Shown: in pieces, positions 2,761 through 26,592 of the stretch
Position numbering within the stretch: position 1 is the first letter of the stretch
Layout: every line of letters begins with the position of its first letter
DNA from: Saliphagus infecundisoli
Lineage (GTDB): Archaea > Halobacteriota > Halobacteria > Halobacteriales > Natrialbaceae
DNA length: 54,313 nucleotides
Assembly (NCBI RefSeq): GCF_020177375.1
Contig: NZ_JAIWHV010000025.1
Span: 1-54,313 of the forward strand
Reading direction: 5' to 3'
Made by a program: the position numbers and the translations under genes
The notes under the pieces: model-generated
What the model saw: the letters and a program-made list of their open reading frames with translations, nothing else
What the model was told of the DNA's origin: nothing
The model's database searches: none

Positions 2761-4107
2761 ATGCCAACCAGAAACGAGGTAATCGAAACATGCGATTCTG
2801 ACGATGTAAGCCTTGTTCGGCTCCTATACGTCGGGAACGATGGTGTTCCTCGCGGTCGCGTCGTTGATGCCGATCACATCGAATCCGCGCTGGATGATGG
2901 GATCAACCTCTCATCGGCGATGCAGTCGTTCAACTCACTTGATCATCTCGCACCCGGCGGGATGTTCGGCGCCGCAGGCGAGGTTCGAATACTCCCTGAT
3001 CCGGAGACGTTCCGGGTCCTCCCGTATGCCGACCGCGCAGCCGTGTTGCTCTGTGACCTCTATGACCTCGACCGAACCCCGTGGGATGCCGATCCTAGAA
3101 GTGCGCTCTCATCGTATCTCGATGACCTCCCATATGAGACGAACGCAGCGTTCGAAAGCGAATTCTACTTCACTCGGACAACCGATGACGGCGAGCTGAT
3201 CCCCTTCGACGATAGCGTCTGCTTCGGCGCCGATGGCATGCAAAGCGCCAACGACATCGCCCTCGACATGACGGACGCACTCAAAGCTCAGGGGATGGAT
3301 ATCGTCGCGTACTATCCGGAATATGGCCCCGGCCAACAGGAACTAGTTGTCGAGCACGCCCCAGGGTTACAGGCGGCAGACAATCATATCCTCTTCAAAC
3401 AGACCGTCAAGGGGGTCGCGTCAAACAACGGCGTTGAAGCGACGTTCGTCCCGAAACCGTTCGAAGAGGCTGCCGGGTCAGGCTGTCATATCCATCTCTC
3501 GCTCTGGGACGACGGCAAGAACGTTTTCCACGACCCTGACAGTGAGGGCCGATACGGTCTGAGTGAGACTGCCCGCCACTTCATCGGAGGTATCTTGGAC
3601 CATGCACCAGCGCTCGTGGCGCTGACTGCGGCGACTGTCACGTCCTACAAGCGTCTCCGGCCCCACATGTGGGCCTCGGCGTTTACCTGCTGGGGACAAG
3701 ACAACCGGGAAGCAATCGTACGTGTGCCATCGTCACAATGGGAGGAGCCGAGTGACACCACTCGATTCGAGTTCAAGCCCGCAGATAATACGGCCAATCC
3801 ATACCTCGCGGAACTTGGACTGCTCGCAGCTGGCATGGATGGTGTCGGCCGAGAACTGGACCCAGGCGCCCCCGTAAACGAGGATCCCGCAGAGATGTCA
3901 GCTACTGAGCGCACAGACCAGGACATCTACCGGCTCCCGGAAACCTTGGGGGACGCATTGGACGAACTGGAAGCTGACGAGGTAATTGCCGACGCGATGG
4001 GAGAGACGCTCTTCCAGTCCTATCTCGAAGTCAAGCGCAGTCAGTGGGAGGAGTTTACAGGTACTGTCACCGACTGGGAGATCGACGAGTTCACACGGGC
4101 GTTCTGA
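2761..4107 (+). CDS. Glutamine-synthetase-like gamma-glutamyl ligase
   Basis: A 448-residue GS-fold ligase that should use ATP to join glutamate to ammonia or an amine. The ATG at 2761 (MPTRNEVIE) is preferred over an upstream in-frame ATG at 2713, because the N-terminal beta-grasp domain starts there. Visible family marks are the N-terminal 'DGVPRGRVV' strand, 'FESEFYF' for metal and glutamate, 'GSGCHIHLSLWDD' in the active site, 'SYKRLRPHMWASAFTCW' with 'NREAIVRVP', and 'NPYLAELGLLAAGMDGV' near the end. The sequence looks more like FluG/PuuA-type GS homologues than the housekeeping enzyme, and the catabolic neighbours support an amine or gamma-glutamyl substrate. Its stop overlaps the next start (TGATG), so the two are translationally linked. 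Confidence 0.85.
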   Translation: MPTRNEVIETCDSDDVSLVRLLYVGNDGVPRGRVVDADHIESALDDGINLSSAMQSFNSLDHLAPGGMFGAAGEVRILPDPETFRVLPYADRAAVLLCDLYDLDRTPWDADPRSALSSYLDDLPYETNAAFESEFYFTRTTDDGELIPFDDSVCFGADGMQSANDIALDMTDALKAQGMDIVAYYPEYGPGQQELVVEHAPGLQAADNHILFKQTVKGVASNNGVEATFVPKPFEEAAGSGCHIHLSLWDDGKNVFHDPDSEGRYGLSETARHFIGGILDHAPALVALTAATVTSYKRLRPHMWASAFTCWGQDNREAIVRVPSSQWEEPSDTTRFEFKPADNTANPYLAELGLLAAGMDGVGRELDPGAPVNEDPAEMSATERTDQDIYRLPETLGDALDELEADEVIADAMGETLFQSYLEVKRSQWEEFTGTVTDWEIDEFTRAF

Positions 4108-5042
4108 TGTCCACCACTCCACCACTGTTCGATGCCCTCGATCTCGACGTAGCGGTGTTGCCTGGCTTCCCGGACGTCCATGAGGCGTATCGACTGCTCC
4201 GCGATCAAAAGGATATGGTCTGTGGGGCGTACACGCTCACGTATCTACTTCAGGCGTTCGGCGTCCACGATGATGACGGCAAGCCGGTTACGGTCGACCA
4301 CGTAGCTGATGTAGCCGGCACCGCGCTCGAACCACACAATGCCGACCGTCAGTCGCTCGTCGAGCGTCGTATCGAGGAGGGCGAACTGCCAGCCGAACGT
4401 GCTGGGACGTGGTCCATGCACGACTACTTCGATGGCGACTTCACCGTTGTTGAAGACGAGGGCGGAACGAGCCCCGAAGGACTGGTTACTGCCTGTGAAA
4501 CCGTCTCGAACGGTCGAGTGGAGGCGATTCCGGTGCCGGCCGTTCACAACGGCGCGACCCAACTCGACGAGGCTCGATTCGATGCGCTGCTCGGTGCGAT
4601 CTCGACCGATGACCTACCTGGTCAGCCGATCCTCAACTACAATCTGAAACACACGCTAGCCCCTGCGGGGCTGCTCGGTCACAAATACAATCTCGTCTCC
4701 CTGCTCACCCAGTGGGATGACCCGTCATACTTTCGGACGATGGACTGGGACGTCGGGCACTTCACGACCGTCGCGGCGCGTGTAACGCGTTCCGAAAATG
4801 ACGAACGATATTTCGTGATCCGCGATTCCTACAAGACGTTCGGGTGGGATGGCTATCATCTTCAGCCGGAGTCGTACATCAGGCAAGGCCTCGAACGAGC
4901 CGATGATCATCGGGATGGTGGTCTCCTGCTCGTATCGCCCACCGACAGTGCCGATACCGTCCGAACGTGGCTCTCCGACCACAACCTCGAATCGGGATTG
5001 TGGGACAACGGGAGCGCCTACACCGGTGAAACGGATGACTGA
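4107..5042 (+). CDS. Uncharacterised Cys-His-Asp hydrolase candidate
   Basis: 311 residues; the ATG overlaps the ligase stop. I do not recognise a named family, but the layout suggests a papain-like or C39-like cysteine hydrolase. A Cys starts a long helix (VCGAYTLTYLLQAFG, about residue 35), then 'DVGHFTTVAARV' supplies a His on a strand, and 'RYFVIRDSYKTFGWDGYHLQ' supplies an Asp in the order expected for a Cys-His-Asp triad. No signal peptide or membrane segment is visible. It sits between a gamma-glutamyl ligase and an M20 peptidase, so hydrolysis or transfer of an amide bond in the same pathway is a reasonable inference. It overlaps the next gene by 8 nt. The catalytic role is unproven. 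Confidence 0.7.
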   Translation: MSTTPPLFDALDLDVAVLPGFPDVHEAYRLLRDQKDMVCGAYTLTYLLQAFGVHDDDGKPVTVDHVADVAGTALEPHNADRQSLVERRIEEGELPAERAGTWSMHDYFDGDFTVVEDEGGTSPEGLVTACETVSNGRVEAIPVPAVHNGATQLDEARFDALLGAISTDDLPGQPILNYNLKHTLAPAGLLGHKYNLVSLLTQWDDPSYFRTMDWDVGHFTTVAARVTRSENDERYFVIRDSYKTFGWDGYHLQPESYIRQGLERADDHRDGGLLLVSPTDSADTVRTWLSDHNLESGLWDNGSAYTGETDD

Positions 5043-6558
5043 CCTCACCGAACGCGAACAGGCACTCGTCGAGACGGGGTGTGCCTGGATCGACGAGAAC
5101 GCGGACACACTTGTTAATCTATTAGGCGATCTGGTCGCGAGACCGAGCCTCCGCGGCAACGAGGGCGTTCACGACGACAGGGGGACTACTGTCGGGCGAT
5201 TGTGGGACTTTCTTGAGAACCGTGCTGATCTGCTTGAACTAGACGCGCAACTGCTTCCGTCCGAAGGAGACTATTGCGAAGAACCCCGAGAGAACGTCTA
5301 CACTGTTCTGCCGGGCGCAGCCGACAACGGGTTTGTTGCAACCAGCCATACCGACGTGGTTCCGCCCGGCACCGACGATGACTGGCCCGAGAACGATCCA
5401 TGGCAGATACAGGAAGGAACGGTCCGTCGCATCGACGAGTGTACGGTGGAGGTTTCCGTCGGAGACCGGAGCGAGGAGCGCACCATCCGAAACCGGATGG
5501 ACCGCATCTGGCGACTCCGTGATGAAGACGAGGCGGCGGCGCTGTTCGGCCGTGGGGTCTACGACAACAAGGCGGCAATCATCTGTCTCGCTGGGAGTGC
5601 GCTCGGCCTTGATGCCGCACTCACTGGCGCCGACGTGGCACTCGGCGGTGACGTGATCCACGGTCACCTCGTCGACGAAGAGTACTACCAGATCGGCGCA
5701 AAGAACATGATCGGATGGGACGGCGGCGACGATTGGCTCGGCGATCGATATGACACGTACGACGGCTGGTCCGCAGTCGTACTCGAAGGATCGTACGGTT
5801 TTGTCCCAGTCGTTGGGCATCGAGGACTCGTGTGGGTGACGCTTCGTGCCGACGGCGAGTCAGTACACGCGTCTACGCCCGACCTCGGGAACAACGCCGT
5901 CTTGGGAGTTGCGAAGGCACTCGCGGAAGCCGATACGAACGACTACCGTGACGATGTTGCCGCCCCATTCGTTGACGATGCGTTGCTAGGCGATCTGACC
6001 GTTGCCCCCGGAACGACGATCGTCGGTGGGGATGTCAAACGAGTCGATTCGGATACCGGGGCCATCGAACGAAGCGGTCTCAATACCGTTTCCGATTGGT
6101 GTGAGGCGACGTTCGATATCCGAATTCCTCGCTGGAAGGGATTTCCACAGGGTGTCGATACGCTTCAAGACGACCTCCGTGCGGCGATCGCGGAGCGGGC
6201 ACGCGCTGCCGCACCCAACGTCGAGTTCTCAGCGACGGTCGGCGAACACGAGTTCTTCCCACCAGTCGCCCTCGCAGATAATCGTGAGGCCGCAGCCGAC
6301 CACCCGCTGGTTCGAACGGCGTCATGGGCCGCCACTGACACTGTCGGCTACGATCCGGGAGTTGATGTCGCGCCAGGTGTCACTGACGCTGCCTTCATCT
6401 ACCATGGGACACACATTCCGACTCTCGTTGAGTACGGTCCGTCGGGGGCACTGTCACACGAGCCGCTTGAATACGTCGAGCGCGACCACGTGATCGCTGG
6501 TGCAAAAGCGATGCTCAAGTTTGCGATCGCGGAGGTAGGGCTCGTTCAGAGATCGTAG
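5035..6558 (+). CDS. M20-family metallopeptidase / amidohydrolase
   Basis: 507-residue member of the ArgE/DapE/ACY1 family, started at ATG 5035 (MTDLTEREQ) although the frame is open further upstream. Zinc-site motifs are in order: 'SHTDVVPPGTDDDW' (H-x-D), 'GRGVYDNKAA' (metal-bridging Asp) and 'HGHLVDEEYYQIGAKN' (catalytic Glu pair), with a dimerisation domain after 'VVGHRGLVWVTLRADG' and a late 'YHGTHIPTLVEYGPSG'. There is a long insertion between the first two motifs (about residues 115-170). Such enzymes hydrolyse N-acyl or gamma-glutamyl amino compounds. It overlaps the upstream gene by 8 nt and converges on the amidohydrolase gene, sharing 13 bp. Confidence 0.85.
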   Translation: MTDLTEREQALVETGCAWIDENADTLVNLLGDLVARPSLRGNEGVHDDRGTTVGRLWDFLENRADLLELDAQLLPSEGDYCEEPRENVYTVLPGAADNGFVATSHTDVVPPGTDDDWPENDPWQIQEGTVRRIDECTVEVSVGDRSEERTIRNRMDRIWRLRDEDEAAALFGRGVYDNKAAIICLAGSALGLDAALTGADVALGGDVIHGHLVDEEYYQIGAKNMIGWDGGDDWLGDRYDTYDGWSAVVLEGSYGFVPVVGHRGLVWVTLRADGESVHASTPDLGNNAVLGVAKALAEADTNDYRDDVAAPFVDDALLGDLTVAPGTTIVGGDVKRVDSDTGAIERSGLNTVSDWCEATFDIRIPRWKGFPQGVDTLQDDLRAAIAERARAAAPNVEFSATVGEHEFFPPVALADNREAAADHPLVRTASWAATDTVGYDPGVDVAPGVTDAAFIYHGTHIPTLVEYGPSGALSHEPLEYVERDHVIAGAKAMLKFAIAEVGLVQRS

Positions 6559-7646
6559 AGGGCGATGGCGTTTTCTCGGAGAATTCCCCGAGCGATCGAT
6601 TCGGCGTACGACTCACTGATGAAGCCATCCGCGTGGAGTCGATCGAGCACCGACGTCAGGTCGGCGCGGAACCGACGCGCGGCAAGGACGTATAGTTCAG
6701 GCACGGAGAACGCATCGCTCCCGTAGAGCAGTTTCGTCGTTGGCGCGAGTTCAAGCGCTTGCGAAATGAGTGGTTCGACCCCGTGCTGGACGAACGGCGT
6801 TGCCAGCGAAAGATCGAGATAGACGTTATCGAGCGTCGCCGTCACGTAGCCCGCAGCGCGAGTGTATGGATAGCCGCCGTGAAGCAGGACGATAGGTGTC
6901 TGAGCGTGAGCAGTGAGAAACTCATACAGGTAGGTCGGATTGACGAACTGGGGGTGTGCATCAGCGTCGCCAAATCCCGTGTGAAATTGGAGCGGCGCGT
7001 CGTGGGAGGCAGCCACGTCCGCAGCGAGGTGGACGAGATAGTCGTTGAAAATAGGCTGTTCGACGCGACCGTCCCAGTTTCGACATACCTCGTCGTACGC
7101 TTGCCGGACTGCCTCGCGATCGTGCGCGCGCACCTGGAGACCCGTTCGATACGCGATAACCGTCTTGAGCGCAACGAAATCTCCGCCGAGTGCATCATCG
7201 AGTTCGTCGACAAAGGTCTCTTCGAACGCGTTGAGCGATTCCGACGCCGGGAGTAGCCTCTCGGCGACGTTCTCGATGCGATGAATCGGCCTGAGGTCTG
7301 CGTCGGTGTACGCTCCGAACTCATCAGGCGTGACGTCAGGGAAGCCGTCATCGACGAGGATCGTTTCCGTGCCCGTCTCGTCGATGAGTTCGCGTGAGTA
7401 TGATTCGGGGTCGACATCAGCGCGGTGGGCGAGTAATGTCGCCTCGTCAGCCTCACCAAACTGTTCTGCGAGGAAGTCCAGTGTCACGCGGTAGTTGAGT
7501 GTATGGCGAGCGTGTTTTGGCGCAAGCTCTCCTTCAGTGAAGAAGTCTGCAAACGTTTCGGTGACACGGTCTCTGTCGAGCGGTTCGACGGCGTGGGCGT
7601 GGTTGTCTACGAGCGGCGTCGATGCGACGACGTCGTGGATGCTCAT
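6546..7646 (-). CDS. Amidohydrolase (FluG N-terminal-like, Amidohydro_2)
   Basis: 366-residue TIM-barrel metal hydrolase. The first strand carries 'VDNHAHA' (His16, His18), followed by 'LQFHTGFGDAD' (metal His), 'IVLLHGGYPYTRAAGY' (His) and 'LLYGSDAFSVPELY' (Asp), the standard order for Amidohydrolase_2. In FluG-type proteins this barrel is fused to a glutamine-synthetase domain. Here the two are separate genes in one cluster, which strengthens the view that they act on the same gamma-glutamyl or amine substrate. It is transcribed with the aminotransferase (52 bp apart), opposite to the ligase operon. Confidence 0.82.
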   Translation of the reverse strand: MSIHDVVASTPLVDNHAHAVEPLDRDRVTETFADFFTEGELAPKHARHTLNYRVTLDFLAEQFGEADEATLLAHRADVDPESYSRELIDETGTETILVDDGFPDVTPDEFGAYTDADLRPIHRIENVAERLLPASESLNAFEETFVDELDDALGGDFVALKTVIAYRTGLQVRAHDREAVRQAYDEVCRNWDGRVEQPIFNDYLVHLAADVAASHDAPLQFHTGFGDADAHPQFVNPTYLYEFLTAHAQTPIVLLHGGYPYTRAAGYVTATLDNVYLDLSLATPFVQHGVEPLISQALELAPTTKLLYGSDAFSVPELYVLAARRFRADLTSVLDRLHADGFISESYAESIARGILRENAIALYDL

Positions 7647-7697
7647 AGCGAACGCTCGGCCGACGAAGGCAAGAAACCGTCGTGTGAATCAGTGAGC

Positions 7698-9035
7698 TCA
7701 CCAGCCGGCGTACTGCGCTAACAGATCCGGATCGAGCGTTTCCGTTCGCGCGTCCCCGATCGCAGCTCCCAATCGTTCGATACCCGCATCGAGATTGGAC
7801 TCGGAGATCGTCAACGGTGGCGTCAGCTCGAGGACGTTCGAGTGCATCCCGACGTAGAATACCGCGAGACCGTGGCGCCGTGCGTGGAGGCATACCTGCG
7901 CTGCGAGGTCGTGTGATGGATCATCCGTGCCGGGTTCGACGAGTTCGACGCCCTGCATTAGTCCTCGTCCACGGACGTCTCCGATCACTGGCGAGTCCGC
8001 GGCGAGCTCTTCTACTCCTCTTGAGAGGCGGTCACCCAGGCGAGCGGCGCGTGCTGGAAGGTTCTCCGATTCGATGACATCGAGGGTTGCGAGGCCAGCC
8101 GCGGCCGGCAATGGCCCACCTGCCGTCGTCATCATGTGACTCGCCGGCTCGAAATCGACGAGTTCTGCCCGTCCGACCACCGCGCTGATTGGAACACCGC
8201 TGCCGAGTGGCTTGCCGAGCATGATGGCGTCGGGTGCGACATCAGCGTGTTCGTACGCGAAAAACTTACCAGTGCGTCCGAGTCCGGCTTTCACCTCGTC
8301 GACGACGAAGTAGGCGTTGTTGTCGGTACAGAGGTCGGCGAGTCCCTCGAGGAATCCATCGGGTGGAACGAGAATGCCACCGTCGCTCTGGAGCGGTTCA
8401 GTGATGAGTCCAGCAACGTCGTGAGTCTCGAACGCCTTGCTGACTGCCTCAAGCGCGTCTTCTACGAGCACATCTGGTGAGTGGGGGGAACGATACACGT
8501 CAGGGAACGGTAGAGTAACAACATTCTCTGCACCGACGTCCGCCTGTGCGCTATGCCCTGAAATGGCCGCTGCGCCGGCCGTGATTCCGTGGTACGATCC
8601 CTCGAAAGATATGACCACGTCCCCATCGCCCGTGGCCGGGATTGCCTTCGAGAGCAAATCGCCTGCCTCTGATCCGGAATGCCCAAACCACACTTTCGTC
8701 GGGATATCACCATTGAATCGGTCACGGAGACGCTCGGCGAGCTCGACCAGTGGTGGATGAGGGAACGAGATTGGTGAATTCGCGAGTGCAGTATCGAGTT
8801 GCTCGTGGAGGTCAGAAATGACCGATGGATGTCGATAGCCTGTGTTCGCTACTGCCCATGCAGACGTAAAATCGATTAACCCGTCACCGTCAACGCCTGT
8901 AAGCGTTGCATCGGATTGACTTGCGAGAGCGAAGGGGAAAAACCGAATCTTCATTGCCTCCGAAAGCACGTCGGCATCTCGGTCAAGCACGCTCTGTTCT
9001 CGGTCCATACGATTGATGACGGCTGAAGGGACCAT
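7698..9035 (-). CDS. Class III PLP-dependent aminotransferase
   Basis: 445 residues, fold type I, similar to 4-aminobutyrate/acetylornithine/diamine aminotransferases. Visible: 'WFGHSGSEAGDLLSKA' (cofactor phosphate loop), 'SFEGSYHGIT', 'VVDEVKAGLGRTGKF' with PLP-binding Asp246, and 'DAIMLGKPLGSG' with Schiff-base Lys275. It should move an amino group from an omega-amine to a 2-oxo acid. It lies upstream of the amidohydrolase and diverges from the permease, so import, deamination and hydrolysis are encoded together. A second possible start is Met10 at 9008. The exact substrate cannot be told from the sequence. Confidence 0.85.
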   Translation of the reverse strand: MVPSAVINRMDREQSVLDRDADVLSEAMKIRFFPFALASQSDATLTGVDGDGLIDFTSAWAVANTGYRHPSVISDLHEQLDTALANSPISFPHPPLVELAERLRDRFNGDIPTKVWFGHSGSEAGDLLSKAIPATGDGDVVISFEGSYHGITAGAAAISGHSAQADVGAENVVTLPFPDVYRSPHSPDVLVEDALEAVSKAFETHDVAGLITEPLQSDGGILVPPDGFLEGLADLCTDNNAYFVVDEVKAGLGRTGKFFAYEHADVAPDAIMLGKPLGSGVPISAVVGRAELVDFEPASHMMTTAGGPLPAAAGLATLDVIESENLPARAARLGDRLSRGVEELAADSPVIGDVRGRGLMQGVELVEPGTDDPSHDLAAQVCLHARRHGLAVFYVGMHSNVLELTPPLTISESNLDAGIERLGAAIGDARTETLDPDLLAQYAGW

Positions 9036-9183
9036 AATACTCAGGTGACTAATTGCCTAGGCGACCGAGGCATGACGAACTCAACATAATAGATACGAAG
9101 AGGTGTCATTCAATTCTTAACTACGCAATATGTATTAGTTCTACAAACTAACAAATATGAATTTCATTCTAATTTCGGCCAAC

Positions 9184-9192
9184 GTTTAAGTA
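9184..9192 (+). promoter_or_regulatory. Likely TATA box of the permease gene
   Basis: An AT-rich 'GTTTAAGTA' lies about 40 nt before the preferred permease ATG (9227), in the ~190-bp gap between divergent genes. It fits a haloarchaeal TATA element for a short-leadered transcript. Confidence 0.35.
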
Positions 9193-9226
9193 CATGTTCG
9201 TTCTGGTCTGTGACAAGCTAGCATCA

Positions 9227-10618
9227 ATGTCAACAGATACAGAAATTGCAGAATCAACGGGATTAGCAAAGCGGCTGGGATTCTGGCACTTGTGGGCGAT
9301 CGGCGTTGGATCAGTGGTCGGTGACGGTATTTTCCTGCTACTGGGCGATGGGATTGCAACAGCGGGTCCGGCGGCTATCCTCGCATACGTACTGGCTGGG
9401 ATGTTCATGCTTTTCATCGCCCTCGCGGTGAGTGATCTCGCGGTCGGTCTGCCGAGTGCCGGCGCCATGTGGATTTGGGGACGGGAACTCCTTGGAGACT
9501 ATGCCGGATTCATTAGCGGACTCTCGTATGCCGTTGGATGGATAATCGCGGGCGGGAGTGTTGGCTTAGCATTAGGCCGGATCACTCAGTTTTTCGTTCC
9601 TGATCTAGGGGTACCAGCCGCAGTCTGGGGAATCCTCTTTGTGACGATTTTCGCGCTTATCCAGCTCGGTGGTGTGTTTCTGTCGAGCCGACTTCAGCTC
9701 GGCCTTGTACTCGTACTTGTGGGTATTGTCCTCATATTTGGCGTCAGCGCTATTCTCAATGGTAACTTCTCTCGAGAGCGTTTCTCGCCGTTCTTCGCGA
9801 CCGGCACTGGAAGCGTCTGGACTGCGATGGCATTTGGAATGTATGCTTATATGGGACCACTCACCCTCACTACAGGTGGGGACGAAGCGAAGAACGTTGA
9901 GGATATCCCTCGTGCGCTGGTTGTTTCGTGTCTGACATTCCTCTTTATCTATACGGTTGCGATGATTGGGATGGTCGGTCTCATGGGCTACGAGGAGTTC
10001 TCGGCGCTTGAATCGCCCTTCACGACGACCGCAGAGATGGTCTGGGGATCGAACGCTGCACTCATCATCAATTTCGCAGCGTGGATCGCAGCATTCACCA
10101 GTCTCTTCATGGGTACGATGTACTCTGCACCACGGATGCTCTACAAGATGGGCGAAATGAAGGTCCTACCTGATATCTTCGGACAGGTGTATGAGGAGAC
10201 GCGTGTTCCGCTCTTTTCAACTGTGTTCGTATGGGCCTGCAGCGTCATCCTGCTATTAGTAGCTCAATATGAACTACTGGACTATGCGCAACTCTCACTG
10301 CTACTGACGTTTGCGTGGCTTGTCACGTGGGCCATTGCGATTGTCGCCGCCGTCAAGTACCGTCGTGAACATCCTCGCCACGTTGCCAATCAGAACTGGA
10401 AACAGCCATTATTCCCGCTGTTTCCGGTGCTCGGGATGATAGGTGTCGCTGTTATCCTCTACGGTACGTTCTCGGGTGCCGTGACATCATTTGGCCTCGG
10501 AATCGTGTTCCTGATCGTCATCAGTGTAATCTACTATTTCTACGGCAGCCGGCGGATGGATAACGCTGACATTCCCACGGTGCTTGACTCCGAGCAGGAA
10601 CCGAGACCTGACGACTAA
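9227..10618 (+). CDS. APC-superfamily amino acid/amine permease
   Basis: 463-residue membrane transporter with about 12 hydrophobic helices, starting at ATG 9227 (MSTDTEIAESTGLAKRLGF). Helix 1 has the unwound APC pattern 'GVGSVVGDGIFLLLGDGI', and 'AAILAYVLAGMFMLFIALAVSDL' follows. The 'GGDEAKNVEDIPRAL' segment is the loop typical of the family after helix 6. It should bring an amino acid or polyamine into the cell by sodium or proton symport, or by exchange. The divergent aminotransferase gene suggests it supplies the substrate of this cluster. The last 20 residues are an acidic tail. Confidence 0.85.
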   Translation: MSTDTEIAESTGLAKRLGFWHLWAIGVGSVVGDGIFLLLGDGIATAGPAAILAYVLAGMFMLFIALAVSDLAVGLPSAGAMWIWGRELLGDYAGFISGLSYAVGWIIAGGSVGLALGRITQFFVPDLGVPAAVWGILFVTIFALIQLGGVFLSSRLQLGLVLVLVGIVLIFGVSAILNGNFSRERFSPFFATGTGSVWTAMAFGMYAYMGPLTLTTGGDEAKNVEDIPRALVVSCLTFLFIYTVAMIGMVGLMGYEEFSALESPFTTTAEMVWGSNAALIINFAAWIAAFTSLFMGTMYSAPRMLYKMGEMKVLPDIFGQVYEETRVPLFSTVFVWACSVILLLVAQYELLDYAQLSLLLTFAWLVTWAIAIVAAVKYRREHPRHVANQNWKQPLFPLFPVLGMIGVAVILYGTFSGAVTSFGLGIVFLIVISVIYYFYGSRRMDNADIPTVLDSEQEPRPDD

Positions 10619-10865: not shown

Positions 10866-10951
10866 CTTAGTCGTTCAAGGCTGAAGCGGCACTAGATCAC
10901 CTCTCTCTAGCCGAAAGATATGAATTATTATAGTGAGTGAACTCCGCTATC

Positions 10952-13900
10952 ATGGATATGTCCTTCTCTTCGGAACAAAGCCTGGGGGAAACACTTCATC
11001 AAATTCTCACCCGATATCCTTCACCAGCACAGATCGGGAAGGGCCGCGAGTACTACAAGATCAACGACGATCCGGATCTACACGATCTCATCAAGAATAC
11101 AAGCGAGGAAGCGGTGTCCAGTGTACTCGAAAGTACAGAACAGGAGTACAACGTTTCTTCCTCGCTCGGTCAGGGATCGATGAGTGATATTCCGTATATC
11201 CCGGTCGAACGTCCCGATGAGACCACAACTACGCAAAAAGGAATCTACATCGTCTACCTCTTCGACACCGATGCTGATCGACTCTATCTCACATTAAATC
11301 AGGGGGCGACGGAAGCCCAGCGTTGCTCGAGCCGGATATCCGGAAAACCGTACTCCCATACCATCCTTGAACGACATGCTGCCCAATACCGGGACTACAT
11401 TCGGCCACCAAATGGATTCCACCCGGAGGCAGCGAGGATCACATCGACTGTAACCCACGAAGGTAGCGAAGAAAACGTCCAACGGTCAGATATGTATAAC
11501 AGCGGTGCGATTCTCACAAAGGAATACTCCCTGGATGATCTCCAGAACGAAGACCAAATCAGAGCAGATTTGCTTGCCCTTGTCGATGTGTATGAGGAAC
11601 TCTTAGACCAACTATATAGTAACCCAGTGTATGACCCTGATAACCGAACTGTCTGGCAAATCTCTCCACTTACCGATCAAGAATGGGAAACGTGGAACAC
11701 TGAGAACATTGCAGTCATCCCCAACCAATCTGAAAACCCCACTAGTGAACTCCAGAACGGGGACATCGTAGTCGCTGGAACAGCGATTACAAATATCGAT
11801 GTTCCATTCGGTGTCGGACGTCTCATTTCATTCGACGTCCCGTCGGAGATACTCGATGACCTTCGTGACGGGCCTGACTTCGACCTATCCAATGACCAAC
11901 AGGTAGTCAGTGTCGATTGGTACCCATTTGGCGAAAAGGGAATCGCAGTCAACTGCCTTTCTGATGAGACGAACCTCTTTGCTGAGCTTCCAGATGATGA
12001 TCGCTCCAATCCAACGATCACCAAACTGCCTGCAGAGTTCAATCACTTCCTTGGATCAGCCATTCGTCGGCTTGTCGTAACCGATCTAGCGACAGATTTT
12101 GAGACAGAACTCGCGCAGATCGAATCCCATCTTTCTAACCACCAACAGACACCAACCATCTACCAAGTCCCGATCCCCACTGATCAAGGCCCGATTCATA
12201 CGAATTTCGACCGGACGGTTCTGGAGGGCGTCCCTCGAGAGGCGATCGAAGGCATCGTTAATATCCCGGTCGAGCAAGAGACGGTCCGTGTATGGGGAAA
12301 CCAGGAAGAAGAGCCAGCTGATGTTGGCGACTATCTCCTTTTTGCTGAGAGAGATGGACACCATGGTGGACGGTATACGACTCTAGCACGCATTGCTCAT
12401 TCGACAATCCTCGAGTCGGAACAGGCTGGTGAGTTCACCAATGCAGTCGGTTGGGGAGACGTAATTGATGAGGTCTACCCCCACGTAATGGTTCTCCAGC
12501 CGATCTACGAAGCTGATCTCGATCGCGAGTCCTTTTGGGATTCAATAGGCTACAAAGGATGGCCGAACGATACGTTCAGTGCAGTCAATTTCGATCGCAC
12601 GGAATCGACATTCAATGACGAATACGATTCCGTTGAGCAGTTCCTCGACTCTATCAAAGGACGCCAGATCTATCCTGCCGAAAGTCCCAGCGAATACGAC
12701 TCACTCGAACAGGCGGTAGCGGACATTGATACTCGTCTCCCTGTCGACAACAACTCCTGGCTCAGAAACCGAATTGGTGAAGCCGTTATCGAGGACTGGT
12801 CTGTGGCGCTCCCCGAATTCGAACCAACGGACACGGTCTCGTCTGACACCGAAGCAACGTTAGACCAACTCCGCCTCGTATATCAGTCTATAGAACCAGG
12901 GTTATCGACACAGTCAGACCAACTCGGAACAGGAATACTCGATCCACTCTCACCCGAACAAACGCTCTTCCTGGGCTGGATTCATCTCATCCAGACCGAT
13001 TTGGACATCACTGAAGGGCGTCTCACCCCGCCTCAATTAGACAGCATTCTCAATGAAACCTACACCTCTCCAGAGAATCCCACTGACATCTCCGAGACAG
13101 AGCATCCACTGATAACCCATCTTCGAACTGCCGAGCCAACCGTCTACAAGACTACAGCACCGCCAGAATACTGGGTGGCCTCGGTCGAATATGGCTCAAT
13201 ATCGTTCGAACACGGCCATGAAGATCGTTGGGAGAGATTGGAGTCGGGCGACGTTGCAATAATTCATTCTCGATCGAAGCCATCGAACCCTGGGTTGGGG
13301 GACCAACCAGGTGGGATTATCGGCGTTGGAATTTTCGGCGACAAATTCGAGAAAGATGAGCCGTGGTGGTGGGATGAACACCACGACGGAGAAGAGTTCT
13401 CCATGCTTGCGAAATTTGATCGGCTCTTTCTCACTGGAGATATTGGCGCCATCGACACTGCCACTGGTATCTCTGAGAAGACCCGCTCTGACATCGAGCA
13501 GGAAATCGCCGCACTCACGGTGGACTGTTTGCCGATCGATGAGGCCAACCGGCTATGCAAACGCGTCTCCGGCAAAGGATTCCCTGCTCAATCGATGTAT
13601 GGGACCTTCCGTACCGACGATGATGAAATCGACTATGAGCGCCCACGCGCCCTCATCGCGGCGATGGCCGATGATCTGACCGAAGTCCCAACAATCAATT
13701 CCCACAAGCCCTTCCAGAGCACGCTTCCCAACGATATTCTCGAAGACCTTCATTTCCAAGACGATCTCGGCGAGCAGATTCTCGAACAGATCTCGACCGC
13801 GCTTCAGTCCGATAAACACGTACTTCTCACAGGACCGCCCGGAACTGGAAAGACGGAGATCGCTGAACGGGTCTGCGAGCACCTCGCCGACTCTCACCCT

Positions 13901-14746
13901 TACCTCTATTCCGACTTCGAGATGACGACAGCGACGGCCGATTGGTCGACGTTCGATACCGTCGGTGGCTACATGCCGACCGAATCCGGCGAGAACACTG
14001 ACGACCTCTCCTTCACTCCCGGAATCGTTCTCAACCGACTCAAGGATCGCCAGCGAGGCATCCAGTCAAACGATCTCCTCGTCGTCGACGAACTCAACCG
14101 CGCGGATATCGACAAAGCGTTCGGACAATTGTTCACGCTTCTCTCTGGACAGTCCGTCCAGTTACCGTACACCGTCGACGGAGACGAAGTCGAATTAACG
14201 ACACACGACGACGTCGACGGACTCGCTGCATCCAACCAGTTCGTCGTCCCCAACTCGTGGCGTCTCTTTGCAACGATGAACGCCTACGATAAGACGTCAC
14301 TCTACGAGATGAGCTATGCGTTCATGCGCCGCTTTGCGTTCGTTCGGGTTCCGGCGCCTGACCTCGAGGAGATTGCCTCAGAGAGTGACGATCCAGCCAC
14401 TGATCTCATCTTCGACTATGCCGACGTCTGGGACCTCGATATCAGTCACGAACAAGCCGATGCAGTTGGACATGTCTGGCTGAACACCAACACTGCCGTT
14501 GAGGAGCGTGCCATCGGCCCAGCGATCATCAAGGACGTTCTCCAGTATGTCACCCTCCACCCGGAGGATGACCTCGGATATCACCTCACGCAAGCCGTTA
14601 TCAGCTACATCTTCCCGCAGCTAGAGGGGGTCCCAAAGCGCAAAACCATCGTTCGGAAACTCACAAAGGTCCCGGAGATTGACCAGGACCTCCTCAAAGG
14701 GGCTGCCCAAGAAATGCTCCAGGTATCACTCGCTGAAAATGAATAG
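10952..14746 (+). CDS. McrB-like AAA+ restriction motor with DNA-reader domains
   Basis: 1,264 residues from ATG 10952 (a GTG lies five codons upstream). The N-terminus is an MrcB_N/DUF3578-type domain ('KGIYIVYLFD', 'RLYLTLNQGATEAQ'). A long middle has two PUA/EVE-looking segments: around 'VRVWGNQEEEPADVGDYLLF' and around 'PEYWVASVEYGSI' to 'GGIIGVGIFGDKF'. The C-terminal motor has Walker A 'GPPGTGKTE' (about residue 962), Walker B 'LLVVDELNRAD' (about 1045), the McrB-type 'ATMNAYDKTSLYEM' and an arginine-rich 'AFMRRFAFV'. McrB proteins translocate DNA after recognising modified bases and hand it to McrC. The McrC-like gene overlaps the 3' end by 8 nt. Reader specificity is unknown. Confidence 0.85.
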   Translation: MDMSFSSEQSLGETLHQILTRYPSPAQIGKGREYYKINDDPDLHDLIKNTSEEAVSSVLESTEQEYNVSSSLGQGSMSDIPYIPVERPDETTTTQKGIYIVYLFDTDADRLYLTLNQGATEAQRCSSRISGKPYSHTILERHAAQYRDYIRPPNGFHPEAARITSTVTHEGSEENVQRSDMYNSGAILTKEYSLDDLQNEDQIRADLLALVDVYEELLDQLYSNPVYDPDNRTVWQISPLTDQEWETWNTENIAVIPNQSENPTSELQNGDIVVAGTAITNIDVPFGVGRLISFDVPSEILDDLRDGPDFDLSNDQQVVSVDWYPFGEKGIAVNCLSDETNLFAELPDDDRSNPTITKLPAEFNHFLGSAIRRLVVTDLATDFETELAQIESHLSNHQQTPTIYQVPIPTDQGPIHTNFDRTVLEGVPREAIEGIVNIPVEQETVRVWGNQEEEPADVGDYLLFAERDGHHGGRYTTLARIAHSTILESEQAGEFTNAVGWGDVIDEVYPHVMVLQPIYEADLDRESFWDSIGYKGWPNDTFSAVNFDRTESTFNDEYDSVEQFLDSIKGRQIYPAESPSEYDSLEQAVADIDTRLPVDNNSWLRNRIGEAVIEDWSVALPEFEPTDTVSSDTEATLDQLRLVYQSIEPGLSTQSDQLGTGILDPLSPEQTLFLGWIHLIQTDLDITEGRLTPPQLDSILNETYTSPENPTDISETEHPLITHLRTAEPTVYKTTAPPEYWVASVEYGSISFEHGHEDRWERLESGDVAIIHSRSKPSNPGLGDQPGGIIGVGIFGDKFEKDEPWWWDEHHDGEEFSMLAKFDRLFLTGDIGAIDTATGISEKTRSDIEQEIAALTVDCLPIDEANRLCKRVSGKGFPAQSMYGTFRTDDDEIDYERPRALIAAMADDLTEVPTINSHKPFQSTLPNDILEDLHFQDDLGEQILEQISTALQSDKHVLLTGPPGTGKTEIAERVCEHLADSHPYLYSDFEMTTATADWSTFDTVGGYMPTESGENTDDLSFTPGIVLNRLKDRQRGIQSNDLLVVDELNRADIDKAFGQLFTLLSGQSVQLPYTVDGDEVELTTHDDVDGLAASNQFVVPNSWRLFATMNAYDKTSLYEMSYAFMRRFAFVRVPAPDLEEIASESDDPATDLIFDYADVWDLDISHEQADAVGHVWLNTNTAVEERAIGPAIIKDVLQYVTLHPEDDLGYHLTQAVISYIFPQLEGVPKRKTIVRKLTKVPEIDQDLLKGAAQEMLQVSLAENE

Positions 14747-16091
14747 AGACGAACTCCTCGGCCAACTCACTGAGGATATTCTCGCGTATGCGATGCGTGG
14801 ATCCTTTCCGGAGCAAGAGTTAGCTCGGTCGATCAAACCGGAGCAACTGGATGAGCGATTCGAGGAGTACGAACTCCTCCTCGATCTTCATTTCATCCTG
14901 CAGGACGACGTCGTCGAGTTCGTCAGGGAACTCTCTGCACAACTCCGGAGTATCCGTACTGAGACTCAGACGACTTCCCGAACGCGGAGAGGGACTATCG
15001 ACGGTCGAATCAACTGGGGTGCCACCATCAAAAAGCGCTACTCACAGTACCCACAGGACAACTCGATCTTCGTCTGCGATAATCGATCCGAGAACTACGA
15101 TATCCCGGAGAACATCGTTCTCAAGCGGCTCATCTCGATTATTCATCGGACGATCCGAGAAGCGGAGGAATACCTCCGAGCCGATTACGACTGGGTCAGT
15201 GAGACCTGGAAGGGAAGTAACGATCTGATTGACGAACTCCAACGAATCGTCGAGCGGAACGTCCACGTTCGTCGCATCCGCGATCCTGACACCTACGAAC
15301 CGACAGAGCGGATGTTAACCACGGCTGCGGACTCTCGACACGAGGTGTACCGACAGGCTGCTTCACTCCTCAAATTTCGTCAGCGGCTGCTCAGTGGTGA
15401 GGCAGACGAGATCCGTCGATTACTCGAACAGACCGCCATCGCTCCGGACGATACCGATTCGTTGTTCGAACTCTTCGTCCTCTTCCGATTCATCGCCACT
15501 ATCGAAGAGCTACGAGAGAGTGGTCCTCGGTTCCAAACGATCGCTACTGATCGCCAGGAGGTGGCCCGATTCGAGGGTGAGAAAGAGATCGTCCTCTACC
15601 ACGACAACTCTGCCCGTGATCGAGATCTCTCCTTTGTTGCCGTCCCTGACGAAACCGAGGCAGCTCCATCGCGAACAGAGCAGGTCCAACTCGTCGCAAA
15701 GGAGATCGCTGGCAACTACTTTCAGAAGGAGTTCGAGGATCACACTGGCCGGCCCGATATCATCGTCCTCGAGATCATCTCTGAGGAATCGGGCGACCAT
15801 GAGTATCTCATCACCGAAATCAAAAACAGCGCTAACGAGGGCACGATCCGACGAGGCATCAAAGAAACGCTCGAGTACCTCGCCTTTTTGCGTCTCAACG
15901 AAGAGTACGTGTTCGGACGTGAGGATGGCGAGTACTTCGGATCAGGGGGAAACGGGCTGCTTGTCGTTCAAGATCTTCAGAACGAGACCGCCTCGCTCGA
16001 CGAGCAGCATGAGAACGAGAGCGAGATCAAGATCCTGCAGGCCTCGGAATTGGAAGAGAAGTTGATGCAGGTGCTCGAGCCGAAAATCTAA
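14739..16091 (+). CDS. McrC-like nuclease subunit
   Basis: 450 residues; its ATG (14739) lies inside the end of the McrB-like gene, so the pair is co-translated. The middle has 'GRINWGATIKKR' and 'NYDIPENIVLKRLI', resembling the conserved region before the nuclease in McrC/DUF2357-type proteins. The C-terminal third holds a PD-(D/E)XK site: 'GRPDIIVLEI' (Asp about 339) and 'YLITEIKNSAN' (E-x-K about 360-362), followed by 'RRGIKETLEYLAFLR'. It should cut DNA when driven by the neighbouring AAA+ protein. It is not a close copy of E. coli McrC. Confidence 0.78.
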   Translation: MNRDELLGQLTEDILAYAMRGSFPEQELARSIKPEQLDERFEEYELLLDLHFILQDDVVEFVRELSAQLRSIRTETQTTSRTRRGTIDGRINWGATIKKRYSQYPQDNSIFVCDNRSENYDIPENIVLKRLISIIHRTIREAEEYLRADYDWVSETWKGSNDLIDELQRIVERNVHVRRIRDPDTYEPTERMLTTAADSRHEVYRQAASLLKFRQRLLSGEADEIRRLLEQTAIAPDDTDSLFELFVLFRFIATIEELRESGPRFQTIATDRQEVARFEGEKEIVLYHDNSARDRDLSFVAVPDETEAAPSRTEQVQLVAKEIAGNYFQKEFEDHTGRPDIIVLEIISEESGDHEYLITEIKNSANEGTIRRGIKETLEYLAFLRLNEEYVFGREDGEYFGSGGNGLLVVQDLQNETASLDEQHENESEIKILQASELEEKLMQVLEPKI

Positions 16092-20546: not shown

Positions 20547-21725
20547 TCACTCTCCGTCAGTAGTGATCTCGTCGGGGGTGGCTTTGGTACTGATCTGGTG
20601 GCAGATTGCCTCTCCGGAATTTGCGTCGAACAGGTGGATCTTTTCTCTGTCAAATACGATCGGTAGATGATCATCTTCGCTCACTTCGAAGCTTGGATCA
20701 ACACTCATCAGTAGCTGTGACGCACCCTGGGCCCCCTCCATTCCACTCTGATTCACTTCTTCACCAACGACGTCGAGGTAAACGAATATATTCTCTCCCA
20801 TGGGCTCAAGTACCTCAACCCGTGCATCTACGCTCGGCGTGGGATCTCCTGCCTGCTCTGCGTTACTCGCTGGATAGAGATCCTCGGGTCGGATACCAAT
20901 GATTACACTTTGGTCGATATTGAGACCATCACCATCCGCAATAGACGCTGGCAGGGAGAATTCCTCAGTAACGATTCCCTCGTGAGAAATCGTCCCCTTC
21001 ACCATATTCATCGAGGGAGAGCCGATAAAACTCGCGACGAATTCGTTGGCTGGTTGGTTATAGCATTCTAGTGGCGGGGCAAGTTGCTGTAGTTTGCCCT
21101 CATTCAATACGGCAATTCTATCGGACATTGTCATCGCTTCGGCCTGATCGTGCGTGACGTAGATTATGGTCGTCCCTAGCTCCTTATGGATTCGTTGGAG
21201 TTCAGTACGCATATGGACGCGTAGCTTTGCGTCAAGATTCGCGAGCGGTTCATCCATCAGAAACACATCTGGGTCGCGAACGATCGCTCGTGCGATCGCA
21301 ACGCGTTGGCGTTGACCACCCGACAGTTCATCCGGCATTCGGTCTTCGGTGCCGCTCATTTCAACGGTTTCGAGGGCTTGTTCGACTCTTTGGTCGATTT
21401 CTTCAGTTTCGATCTTTCGAAGACTGAGGCCGAAACTAGCATTTTCATACACACTCATATGAGGAAACAATGCAATGTTTTGAAATACCATTGCGATGTT
21501 TCGGTCCTTCGGTGGTAGGTATGTGACATCGCGGTCACCGATTGTGACCGTTCCGGCAGATGGTTCAGTCAGACCTGCCATCATCTCGAGCGTCGTTGAT
21601 TTTCCACAGCCGGATGGACCCACGAGACAAACGAACTCACCGTCTTTGATCTCGAGATCCATATTTTCGACCGCTTGTACATCACCGTACTTCTTCGTGA
21701 TATCTTTGAGTGTAACTTGTGCCAT
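20547..21725 (-). CDS. ABC sugar-type ATPase (MalK/UgpC family)
   Basis: 392 residues. Walker A 'GPSGCGKST' (about 37-45), signature 'LSGGQRQRV', Walker B 'DVFLMDEPLANLD' and the H-loop 'YVTHDQAEAMTMSD' are intact. The C-terminal ~140 residues ('FIGSPSMNMVKG', 'IGIRPEDLYPA') are the TOBE regulatory domain typical of importers for sugars and oligosaccharides. It powers the two permeases encoded just upstream (6-nt gap) and is last in a four-gene operon with the substrate-binding lipoprotein first. It acts on the cytoplasmic face of the membrane. Confidence 0.93.
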   Translation of the reverse strand: MAQVTLKDITKKYGDVQAVENMDLEIKDGEFVCLVGPSGCGKSTTLEMMAGLTEPSAGTVTIGDRDVTYLPPKDRNIAMVFQNIALFPHMSVYENASFGLSLRKIETEEIDQRVEQALETVEMSGTEDRMPDELSGGQRQRVAIARAIVRDPDVFLMDEPLANLDAKLRVHMRTELQRIHKELGTTIIYVTHDQAEAMTMSDRIAVLNEGKLQQLAPPLECYNQPANEFVASFIGSPSMNMVKGTISHEGIVTEEFSLPASIADGDGLNIDQSVIIGIRPEDLYPASNAEQAGDPTPSVDARVEVLEPMGENIFVYLDVVGEEVNQSGMEGAQGASQLLMSVDPSFEVSEDDHLPIVFDREKIHLFDANSGEAICHQISTKATPDEITTDGE

Positions 21726-21731
21726 GGATGG

Positions 21732-22643
21732 TTACTCCTTTAGTGCGCCAGAGGTTAGACCGCTGATAATCTGCTCCTGTGCGAGGACGACGAGTATTGC
21801 GACGGGTATTACAGCCACCAAGCTCGCCGCTGCCATGTAATTGTAGAGCTGTTCATACTGTGTTTGATAGTTGAGGATACCGTGCACGATTGGTGCCCAA
21901 TTTTCTGGCTGGCCGTTGTTCATCAGATATGAGAAGAAGAACTCGTTGTAAGTATAAATGAACGTGAGAACGCCGGCGGTTACTACGCCGGGTGCTGAAA
22001 GAGGAATAATCACCCGGAAAAGAGCGCCAAGTCTTGTACTCCCTTCAACTCTAGCTGCGTCTTCAAGCCCGTCAGGAATCTGGCTGTAGAACGTCGTAAG
22101 GATGAATATGGACAACGGCATGAACAGTGCGCTAAACGGGAGTATCAGTGATCCAGGTGTGTTGAATAGATCAGGAGAACTCAGGCCAAGTATCGAGACG
22201 TTCCCCGTGAATAGCTCGAACAGTGGAATGAGGAATGATGCCGGCGGGAAATAGGAAATTGCCAACACAAACAGCATAATTGGCACTTTCCCCGGGAAAT
22301 CGAGACGACCGAATACATATCCAGTGATTGATGCGAGAAGTATAACGAATATCGTAGTCGCTAGTGACAAAACGATACTGTTGAAGATAAAGCGATGGAG
22401 CGGTGCCTGCTGGAATATCTCGATGAAGACACCGGGGTTAAAACCATTCGGCAGCAAACCGAGCCCGTATATCTGATCCTGTGGAGTCACTGCCAGAGCT
22501 GTCAACCAGTAGAATGGGAAGAGCGTCGAAACAAGGAATCCGAAGGTTGCGATGTAGAACGCCGTTTTGTACACCGAGCCAGGTCTCCTAATAGCCTTTT
22601 GCACATACACGTTTACTCTGCTGTTGGTGGTGTTTTCTTCCAT
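21732..22643 (-). CDS. ABC sugar-type permease (MalG-like)
   Basis: 303 residues with six hydrophobic segments. The cytoplasmic EAA loop that docks on the ATPase is 'EDAARVEGSTRLGALFRVIIP'-like, about 80 residues before the end. The short first loop and the ending 'IISGLTSGALKE' match MalG-type subunits, whose C-terminus reaches the ATPase ('SGLTxGAxKG'). It pairs with the larger permease upstream (4-nt gap) to form the channel of the importer. Confidence 0.9.
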   Translation of the reverse strand: MEENTTNSRVNVYVQKAIRRPGSVYKTAFYIATFGFLVSTLFPFYWLTALAVTPQDQIYGLGLLPNGFNPGVFIEIFQQAPLHRFIFNSIVLSLATTIFVILLASITGYVFGRLDFPGKVPIMLFVLAISYFPPASFLIPLFELFTGNVSILGLSSPDLFNTPGSLILPFSALFMPLSIFILTTFYSQIPDGLEDAARVEGSTRLGALFRVIIPLSAPGVVTAGVLTFIYTYNEFFFSYLMNNGQPENWAPIVHGILNYQTQYEQLYNYMAAASLVAVIPVAILVVLAQEQIISGLTSGALKE

Positions 22644-22647
22644 GGTT

Positions 22648-23616: not shown

Positions 23617-23656
23617 TATAATGAGTTATAATTTGTTGCTACCCAGAGTTGGCGAT

Positions 23657-25204: not shown

Positions 25205-25294
25205 TGTAATTCCAAACAAATGGATCTATTCTATCCCTAATAAACCCTGTTACCACTACCGTTCATCTTGGAGCGCGTTTTATACCCTTCTTCA

Positions 25295-26371: not shown

Positions 26372-26592
26372 TTGATATTGCCATCTTCTCTGAGCGCGAG
26401 AGCTTAAACAATTTGGTCCCTCTCCTCAGATATCAGCCTATTCTATCACTCCCGTCTCTCCGTTGTTACCTTGTAGACTCCGACTCTCAGCTCCCATAAA
26501 ATGGCCCTCCCTGCGTCTTGGGACGCTAACGACAGAACTGAGCAGTTGAAAGGAGTTTATTTCCACATAATTTCGCATGATTTATAAACAGA

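Follow-up and report, generated by a model that had tools for sequence, protein, structure and literature searches.

The Puu, Pau and ethanolamine gamma-glutamylation pathways are already described (PMC9397018, PMC6529630). A haloarchaeal ligase activity of this kind is also known, as GlnA-2 of Haloferax mediterranei (HFX_1688) is a glutamate-putrescine ligase (PMC8394153). The two halves of the fungal protein FluG have been linked to separate bacterial enzymes, and the reaction of its amidohydrolase half has been called unresolved (PMC6478659). In Streptomyces coelicolor, the split pair SCO6961 (amidohydrolase) and SCO6962 (ligase gene glnA3) is likely co-transcribed and is polyamine-induced (PMC5403932). 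Alpha-amino-epsilon-caprolactam (ACL) racemase accepts amino acid amides as well as ACL, and biocatalysis pairs it with amidases (PMC7431475). Here, we describe six genes of the haloarchaeon Saliphagus infecundisoli, located at positions 2761-10618 of contig NZ_JAIWHV010000025.1. The whole contig (54,313 nucleotides) is referred to as the window; it belongs to a 4.53 Mb genome assembled in 76 contigs. The six genes encode a glutamine synthetase (GS)-like ligase, three hydrolases, a pyridoxal phosphate (PLP) enzyme and a permease, and we tentatively relate them to the catabolism of an amide- or lactam-like amine.

The gene set and its conservation in haloarchaea

All six open reading frames (ORFs) were found at the coordinates below.

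2761..4107, + strand: GS-like ligase, predicted to act as a gamma-glutamyl:amine ligase (PF00120, 343 bits, and PF16952; NCBI model NF045547)
4107..5042, + strand: DUF6885 protein, probable papain/C39-like cysteine amide hydrolase (PF21819, 151 bits)
5035..6558, + strand: M20 metallo-hydrolase, ArgE/DapE-like deacylase or amide hydrolase (PF01546 and PF07687)
6546..7646, - strand: FluG-N-type binuclear metal amidohydrolase (PF04909)
7698..9035, - strand: fold-type I PLP enzyme, most likely of the ACL racemase group (PF00202; likely start 9008)
9194..10618, + strand: APC-family amino acid/amine permease, divergent (PF00324/PF13520; likely start 9227)

The ligase and DUF6885 genes overlap by 1 base and the DUF6885 and M20 genes by 8 bases, indicating that the three probably form a single translationally coupled operon, as proposed in the initial annotation. 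The placement of the amidohydrolase and class III-fold genes on the opposite strand and of the permease as divergent was likewise correct; the amidohydrolase gene follows 51 bases downstream of the PLP-enzyme gene. The start positions of the last two genes are probable ones, based on the annotation of the record and on alignments of relatives.

The co-occurrence search proposed with that annotation was run and revealed five full haloarchaeal clusters, window included, in which genes for the ligase, DUF6885, M20, amidohydrolase and ACL-racemase-type (ACLR-type) enzyme occur together, along with three partial clusters. Labels starting with L (loci), G (genomes) and H (plasmid records) are names used in this analysis.

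Full cluster: the window
Full cluster: L012 (G312)
Full cluster: L004, on a plasmid of Haladaptatus halobius (counted as one with L035 and L044/G430)
Full cluster: L005, Halorussus litoreus (counted as one with L016/G162)
Full cluster: L013 (G323)
Partial cluster: L036, on a plasmid of Haladaptatus caseinilyticus; all but the ACLR-type gene, plus a second ligase
Partial cluster: L014 (G129); ligase, DUF6885 and M20
Partial cluster: L017 (G160); ligase, M20 and amidohydrolase

Gene order and strand vary among the full clusters. Clusters of these gene families come from genomes that belong to at least four haloarchaeal families (f1, f4, f6 and f10), and those of two Haladaptatus species are plasmid-borne. 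The APC permease is present in three of the five full clusters (besides the window, in L004/L035 and L012) and also in the partial cluster L036. In its place, L005 and L013 feature an ABC importer, for which they encode a binding protein and PotC-like and PotA-like components, and also an AstE-type hydrolase; their Pot-like genes score below the NCBI cut-offs.

DUF6885 was found above the cut-off in five of 391 genomes of the class, and all five genes are located near a ligase gene (distances of 54, 54, 60, 3766 and 5209 bases). The 20 kb around a sixth match of 19.8 bits (G158) contain a PotA-like ATPase gene as the sole cluster gene. The amidohydrolase (E 1e-30) occurs in five of the 391 genomes, always within clusters, and M20 (E 1e-60) in seven, six of which are clustered; the seventh (G029) starts 189 bases from a contig end. 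The ACLR-type enzyme (E 1e-130) was detected in three genomes of a 392-genome sample of the order, all in such clusters. The ligase (E 1e-100; 37 of 391 genomes) mostly occurs without the set: one of 18 further ligase regions (L017) has M20 and the amidohydrolase, and none has DUF6885. A contig scan with the window DUF6885 protein, which reaches close relatives only, yielded two haloarchaeal loci. Beyond haloarchaea, DUF6885 was absent from 14 control genomes, and plasmids gave the two Haladaptatus records only; other bacterial genomes were not searched. Chance juxtaposition of the six genes was rejected based on the rarity and repeated clustering of DUF6885, amidohydrolase and M20. The gene set is a real conserved unit.

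Some neighbouring arrangements were also observed. In L036 (16003-18536), the gene for the second ligase, which is 56% identical to the window ligase, precedes the amidohydrolase gene on its upstream side. Annotation covered part of the related ligase regions that lack the set (L018-L025); three of them, with no DUF6885, lie near an AstE-type hydrolase (L022 531-3591, L023 9359-12459, L024 5380-8924). L022 and L024 also carry a metallo-beta-lactamase-fold hydrolase (Pfam), and one ORF of L023 starts alike. Next to the H. halobius cluster (L035 19200-24489) there is a further gene of the class III aminotransferase fold; together with an APC permease, a regulator of the Lrp/AsnC type and an amidohydrolase encoded there, it possibly constitutes a neighbouring amine pathway.

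Ligase, PLP enzyme and hydrolases

The window ligase scores 705.6 bits with NF045547 (gamma-glutamylputrescine synthetase), above the cut-off of 650, and 317.8 bits with the GlnA model, below the cut-off of 429. L003, the other GS-family gene of the genome, passes the GlnA cut-off with 575 bits. In an alignment of ten sequences (nine ligases and L003), the position of the flap Glu is occupied by Trp in all nine ligases (W304 in the window) and by Glu in L003. At the position of the ammonium-site Tyr, eight of the nine ligases have Cys (C154 in the window) and the ninth, from Allomeiothermus, has Phe; L003 retains the Tyr. The roles of these GS residues follow PMC8394153 and PMC6478659, with positions transferred by alignment. 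A plain glutamine synthetase was therefore rejected: the window ligase falls below the GlnA cut-off and is without the ammonium-site residues, and L003 passes as GlnA. The original reading as a gamma-glutamyl ligase is thus supported.

By the name of the model, the window ligase may act on putrescine. Other cluster ligases also pass the NF045547 cut-off (L012 with 725, L017 with 708 and L005 with 685 bits); two fall short of it, namely the L014 ligase (604 bits for a sequence lacking its first residues) and the second one of L036 (634 bits). Since L028, a ligase encoded beside siderophore-type genes, passes as well (728 bits), NF045547 does not settle the substrate of the ligase. The neighbours of this haloarchaeal ligase (L028 4277-10842) are a class III aminotransferase, a PLP decarboxylase and IucA/IucC genes (Pfam). 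The surroundings of another haloarchaeal ligase passing NF045547 (L032 756-11749) resemble those of L028, as judged from ORF starts. These siderophore-type contexts suggest either that a diamine is involved or that the model's name is applied too loosely.

The PLP enzyme was initially annotated as a class III aminotransferase. The fold is right (PF00202), but aminotransferase is only a fold label here, as the enzyme is most likely of the ACLR type. Its best PDB matches are ACL racemase (3dxw/2zuk, 342 bits) and entries of the 5m46 group (333-337 bits), followed by amino acid amide racemase (6gio, 283 bits), a broad-specificity racemase (9wrf, 264 bits) and isoleucine 2-epimerase (252 bits). 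Aminotransferases match more weakly, with at most 229 bits for GABA (gamma-aminobutyrate) aminotransferases, 227 for PuuE (6wj8) and 161 for putrescine aminotransferase (4uox). The alignment with ACL racemase shares an EP(L/I)QSDGG segment, a YVGM..NVLE.TPPLTI segment and a C-terminal AGW.

K275, D218 and W60 of the window enzyme are counterparts of the signature residues K267, D210 and W49 of Achromobacter obae ACL racemase, which we take to be the PLP lysine, the second-base Asp and the substrate Trp, respectively. In an alignment of 29 proteins from the loci studied (with none of the other known racemases, such as isoleucine 2-epimerase and the broad-specificity racemase, included), equivalents of D218 and W60 are present in 21 of 21 proteins of the ACLR group, whereas the eight class III enzymes outside it have neither. 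All 29 have the PLP Lys. In the tree of the same proteins, the five haloarchaeal PLP enzymes form one group (99/99), which joins 16 bacterial ACLR-type proteins at 90/91. Descent from a putrescine or GABA aminotransferase was rejected on the PDB ranking together with tree and residues. None of the five other class III matches in the genome (E up to 1e-10) exceeds 36% identity to the enzyme, which is of a type annotated elsewhere as aspartate aminotransferase family. An ACLR-type enzyme would point to an alpha-amino amide- or lactam-like substrate instead of amine transamination.

In the DUF6885 protein, Q34, C39, H218 and D240 are invariant in all seven proteins aligned. The order Gln-Cys-His-Asp is that of a papain/C39-type cysteine enzyme, and a papain/C39-like cysteine amide hydrolase is the probable identity; because Pfam gives DUF6885 no function, the label of a cysteine hydrolase derives from these conserved residues alone. 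A fold prediction built from three sequences reached a pLDDT of 46.9, too weak to use, and the best match in a PDB sequence search had an E value of only 0.88.

The M20 protein resembles ArgE/DapE deacylases but scores below their cut-offs, and a PDB sequence search gave no match at E 0.001. H105, D107, D177, E215, E216, D451 and H475 are invariant in the eight proteins aligned, and E251, a candidate further zinc ligand, is Glu in seven and Asp in one; we presume for these residues the roles that they have in the M20 family. A PDB search with the amidohydrolase gave a single match at E up to 0.01, 2QPX (136 bits). Residues H16, H18, K161, Y166, H222, H256 and D311 of the amidohydrolase are invariant in nine of nine proteins; they are the counterparts of the seven residues that Table 2 of PMC6478659 names.

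Bacterial parallel and proposed pathway

A plasmid search yielded 86 records with ACLR-type matches at E 1e-60, of which 85 are non-Haladaptatus and 44 are from Klebsiella. Sixteen loci were read: five of Shinella, five of Sinorhizobium and one each of Rhizobium, NT-25, Ensifer, Ciceribacter, Maritalea and Klebsiella. H44 and H48 were chosen since their matches were already labelled with an N-formylglutamate-amidohydrolase-type hydrolase (FGase, PF05013) or isochorismatase; the remaining 14 were selected so as to cover different organisms. All 16 loci contain an FGase gene, an isochorismatase-type cysteine hydrolase gene (15 by tblastn, that of L056 by annotation at the edge of the stretch) and a GS-family gene. 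The latter lies inside the first stretch in L040, L046, L053, L056 and L058, is partly seen at the stretch edge in L041, L042, L047, L050, L052 and L055, and was found in the extended stretch in L048, L049, L051, L054 and L057. That of L054 looks split: in the extended stretch (L062 3088-4399, Sinorhizobium meliloti Ak57) the ligase gene is apparently in two pieces, which may explain its absence from the gene table.

Among the matches listed, identities of the ACLR-type enzymes to the window enzyme are 38-42% for alphaproteobacteria and 37% for Klebsiella. With 813 bits, the enzyme of Shinella zoogloeoides is a close match to ACL racemase (2zuk). The genes for ligase, APC permease and ACLR-type enzyme are consecutive in L058, the locus from Klebsiella. 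Branched-chain-type ABC importers and a MurR/RpiR regulator were each found in 10 of 11 annotated bacterial sets.

A second plasmid search, with the amidohydrolase, gave 46 matching records, four of which were read besides the two of Haladaptatus. The ligase adjoins the amidohydrolase in three of these four non-Haladaptatus records; in three Deinococcota plasmids, ligase and FluG-type amidohydrolase genes are adjacent (identities of 40-42% and 33-35%). On a Mesorhizobium plasmid (L043 3900-7939), asparaginase and M20/M25/M40 hydrolase genes are followed by a FluG-type amidohydrolase homologue, and an amino acid ABC importer is encoded.

A gamma-glutamyl ligase, a PLP enzyme of the ACL/amide-racemising group, hydrolases that vary with lineage and importers of amino acids or amines lead us to infer catabolism of an amide- or lactam-like amine. 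Part of the basis is that ligase and racemase stay constant while the hydrolases differ between lineages. In general terms, the set probably couples glutamate to a nitrogen compound and degrades it. We consider it possible, though short of probable, that the six genes act as one module that breaks down an alpha-amino amide- or lactam-like amine, and not plain putrescine, by way of gamma-glutamylation. The catabolic direction, the order of steps and the roles of the hydrolases are proposed on the same basis. The APC permease, or the PotA/PotC-like ABC importer in two relatives, would import the amine. The GS-like ligase would then join the gamma-carboxyl of glutamate to the primary amine of the substrate in an ATP-driven reaction. 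The ACLR-type enzyme may interconvert the enantiomers at the alpha-amino carbonyl centre (of an amide, a lactam or similar), which would let stereospecific enzymes use both forms; ACL racemase and amidases are combined on the same principle in biocatalysis (PMC7431475). DUF6885, M20 and the FluG-type amidohydrolase would hydrolyse two amide bonds, one belonging to the substrate itself and one formed with the gamma-glutamyl group, so that glutamate is regained and either an amino acid or ammonia is released.

Several observations weigh against this proposal. The substrate class is one that we infer, the NCBI model names the ligase a gamma-glutamylputrescine synthetase, and three hydrolases exceed the needs of a simple scheme. 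The 90/91 branch joining the haloarchaeal and bacterial enzymes is below the starred support level, and at 41-42% identity to the two bacterial racemases aligned, the PLP enzyme may have another activity. The ACLR-type gene is missing from L036, L014 and L017 and is thus not essential to every version of the cluster. Among the bacteria, 15 of the 16 loci are alphaproteobacterial and mostly close kin. Their ligases are distant (28% identity for S. fredii; 258 bits with NF045547 for L040), and since they use hydrolases and importers from different families, what they share with the haloarchaeal clusters is a pattern. The window APC query gave no match in L058 at E 1e-10, though this locus has its own APC permease, so the permeases are analogues at best. 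A short-chain oxidoreductase gene adjoins the ACLR-type gene in L058, and aldehyde dehydrogenase genes located 4-5 kb from it in L053 and L057 leave room for an oxidative route there. Finally, L043 combines the amidohydrolase with an M20-family gene, with no ligase in the stretch read.

The main rival explanation is ordinary putrescine or polyamine catabolism. In that case the ligase would form gamma-glutamylputrescine, the PLP enzyme would transaminate the free amine end in place of PuuB, an aldehyde dehydrogenase encoded elsewhere would act next and one hydrolase would free GABA. The initial annotation held that the substrate may be new. It may indeed be other than putrescine, but putrescine stays a live alternative because glutamate-putrescine ligase activity is published for haloarchaea (PMC8394153). 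The equivalog score of the window ligase with NF045547, the Pot-like genes of two clusters (below cut-offs as these are), the aldehyde dehydrogenase genes of two bacterial loci and the polyamine induction of Streptomyces glnA3 with SCO6961 (PMC5403932) are in line with it. The PLP enzyme, however, is far from PatA and PuuE and carries the racemase residues, the NF045547 cut-off is also passed by the siderophore-locus ligase, and neither an aldehyde dehydrogenase nor an oxidase is encoded among the six genes (the neighbours of the related haloarchaeal clusters being annotated in part). We therefore regard this explanation as unlikely, albeit the strongest of the rivals.

Use of D-amino acids or D-peptide amides appears quite improbable. 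Here, the PLP enzyme would racemise free amino acids, M20 and DUF6885 would be peptidases or deacylases, and the ligase would detoxify or trap an amine by-product. The broad-specificity racemase and isoleucine 2-epimerase as next-best racemase matches, the likeness of M20 to ArgE/DapE deacylases (below their cut-offs) and the branched-chain amino acid-type importers in most annotated bacterial sets fit this idea. However, ACL racemase and amino acid amide racemase are both better matches, and a gamma-glutamyl ligase is unneeded for free amino acids. In a third rival, a FluG-like role in signalling or biosynthesis, the ligase and the amidohydrolase would produce or modify a gamma-glutamylated metabolite instead of degrading a nutrient; FluG is concluded to act in fungal development via a gamma-glutamylated intermediate (PMC6478659). 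We regard this role as very improbable, because an accessory nutrient pathway is better suited by the patchy occurrence of DUF6885 (5 of 391 genomes), by the plasmid location in two Haladaptatus species and by the fact that each of the five full clusters encodes a permease or an importer.

Returning to amide- or lactam-like amine catabolism, a wider reading would be that archaea and bacteria share an undescribed alpha-amino amide/lactam pathway that combines gamma-glutamylation with an ACL-type racemase, with DUF6885 as a new amide-cleaving cysteine hydrolase family replacing the bacterial isochorismatase type; we consider this doubtful at present. The locus ties together the FluG amidohydrolase half, DUF6885 and the natural context of ACL racemase. 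If the pathway is real, ACL racemase, described as a tool in biocatalysis (PMC7431475), gains a natural role, and a nutrient route is now hidden under the annotations 'gamma-glutamylputrescine synthetase' and 'aspartate aminotransferase'. In the literature searched, which covered few subscription papers, no described operon matching the set was found, in agreement with the initial annotation. The same search returned no paper on DUF6885, on the natural gene context of ACL racemase, on a caprolactam racemase together with a glutamine synthetase, on the bacterial ACLR/ligase/hydrolase set as a whole or on the haloarchaeal steps after GlnA-2.

Elsewhere in the window, positions 10937-16091 (+ strand) encode a 1269-amino acid protein with MrcB_N and AAA_5 domains and then a 450-amino acid protein without a Pfam match. 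The pair resembles McrBC-type restriction; PADLOC gave weak matches for the first protein and none for the second. At 20547-27987 (- strand), ABC-type importer genes, a TrmB-type regulator (25295-26371) and a sulfatase (26593-27987) follow in series, possibly for uptake and desulfation of sulfated sugars; regulator and sulfatase were assigned by Pfam, the ABC genes from ORF starts alone. A transposase gene with HTH_32 and DDE_3 domains (Pfam) at 29419-30546 (+ strand) is presumably IS630-like.

Comparison with known systems

Like the window ligase, H. mediterranei GlnA-2 is a haloarchaeal GS-like protein without the residues essential for glutamine synthesis. The neighbours of HFX_1688, in contrast, are a MATE transporter, an ABC transporter and glnA-3, unlike in the window, and the text of the paper (PMC8394153) never mentions an amidohydrolase, peptidase, racemase, M20, DUF6885 or FluG.

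Escherichia coli Puu and Pseudomonas Pau share with the window an ATP-dependent gamma-glutamylation as first step and an amine permease. They feature a PuuB oxidase, a PuuC dehydrogenase, a PuuD-type hydrolase and a PatA/PuuE-type enzyme, which the six window genes lack. Based on Pfam, none of the six is of the PuuB, PuuC or PuuD (PF07722) type, PuuB and PuuC not having been searched genome-wide, and the mismatch with the standard polyamine route noted initially is real. PF07722 has five matches elsewhere in the genome (23.8-36.3 bits, over a low cut-off of 20.5); it also matches all 14 control genomes and is so unspecific that a distant PuuD is neither shown nor excluded by it.

Both halves of FluG are present in the window, unfused and on opposite strands, with the metal ligands of the amidohydrolase intact. 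Their occurrence as separate genes is as initially noted, but such a split pair is not new: S. coelicolor SCO6961-SCO6962 likewise comprises a ligase and a 2QPX-like amidohydrolase as separate genes (PMC5403932). Unlike in the window, no M20, DUF6885 or racemase-type gene is described alongside this pair or fungal FluG.

In the ethanolamine systems (S. coelicolor GlnA4; Chromohalobacter salexigens), a GS-family ligase is accompanied by an FGase-type hydrolase proposed to act on the gamma-glutamyl product, similar to the bacterial ACLR sets; the descriptions include alcohol- and aldehyde-type dehydrogenases and no racemase-type enzyme. The closest solved relative of the window PLP enzyme is A. 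obae ACL racemase (2zuk, 3dxw). The plasmid sets of Rhizobiaceae, Maritalea and Klebsiella combine an ACLR-type enzyme and a GS-family ligase with two kinds of hydrolase, one with a cysteine and one with a metal, as do the haloarchaeal clusters. The hydrolases of the bacterial sets are FGase and an isochorismatase-type enzyme, whereas the haloarchaeal clusters feature M20, DUF6885 and the FluG-type amidohydrolase.

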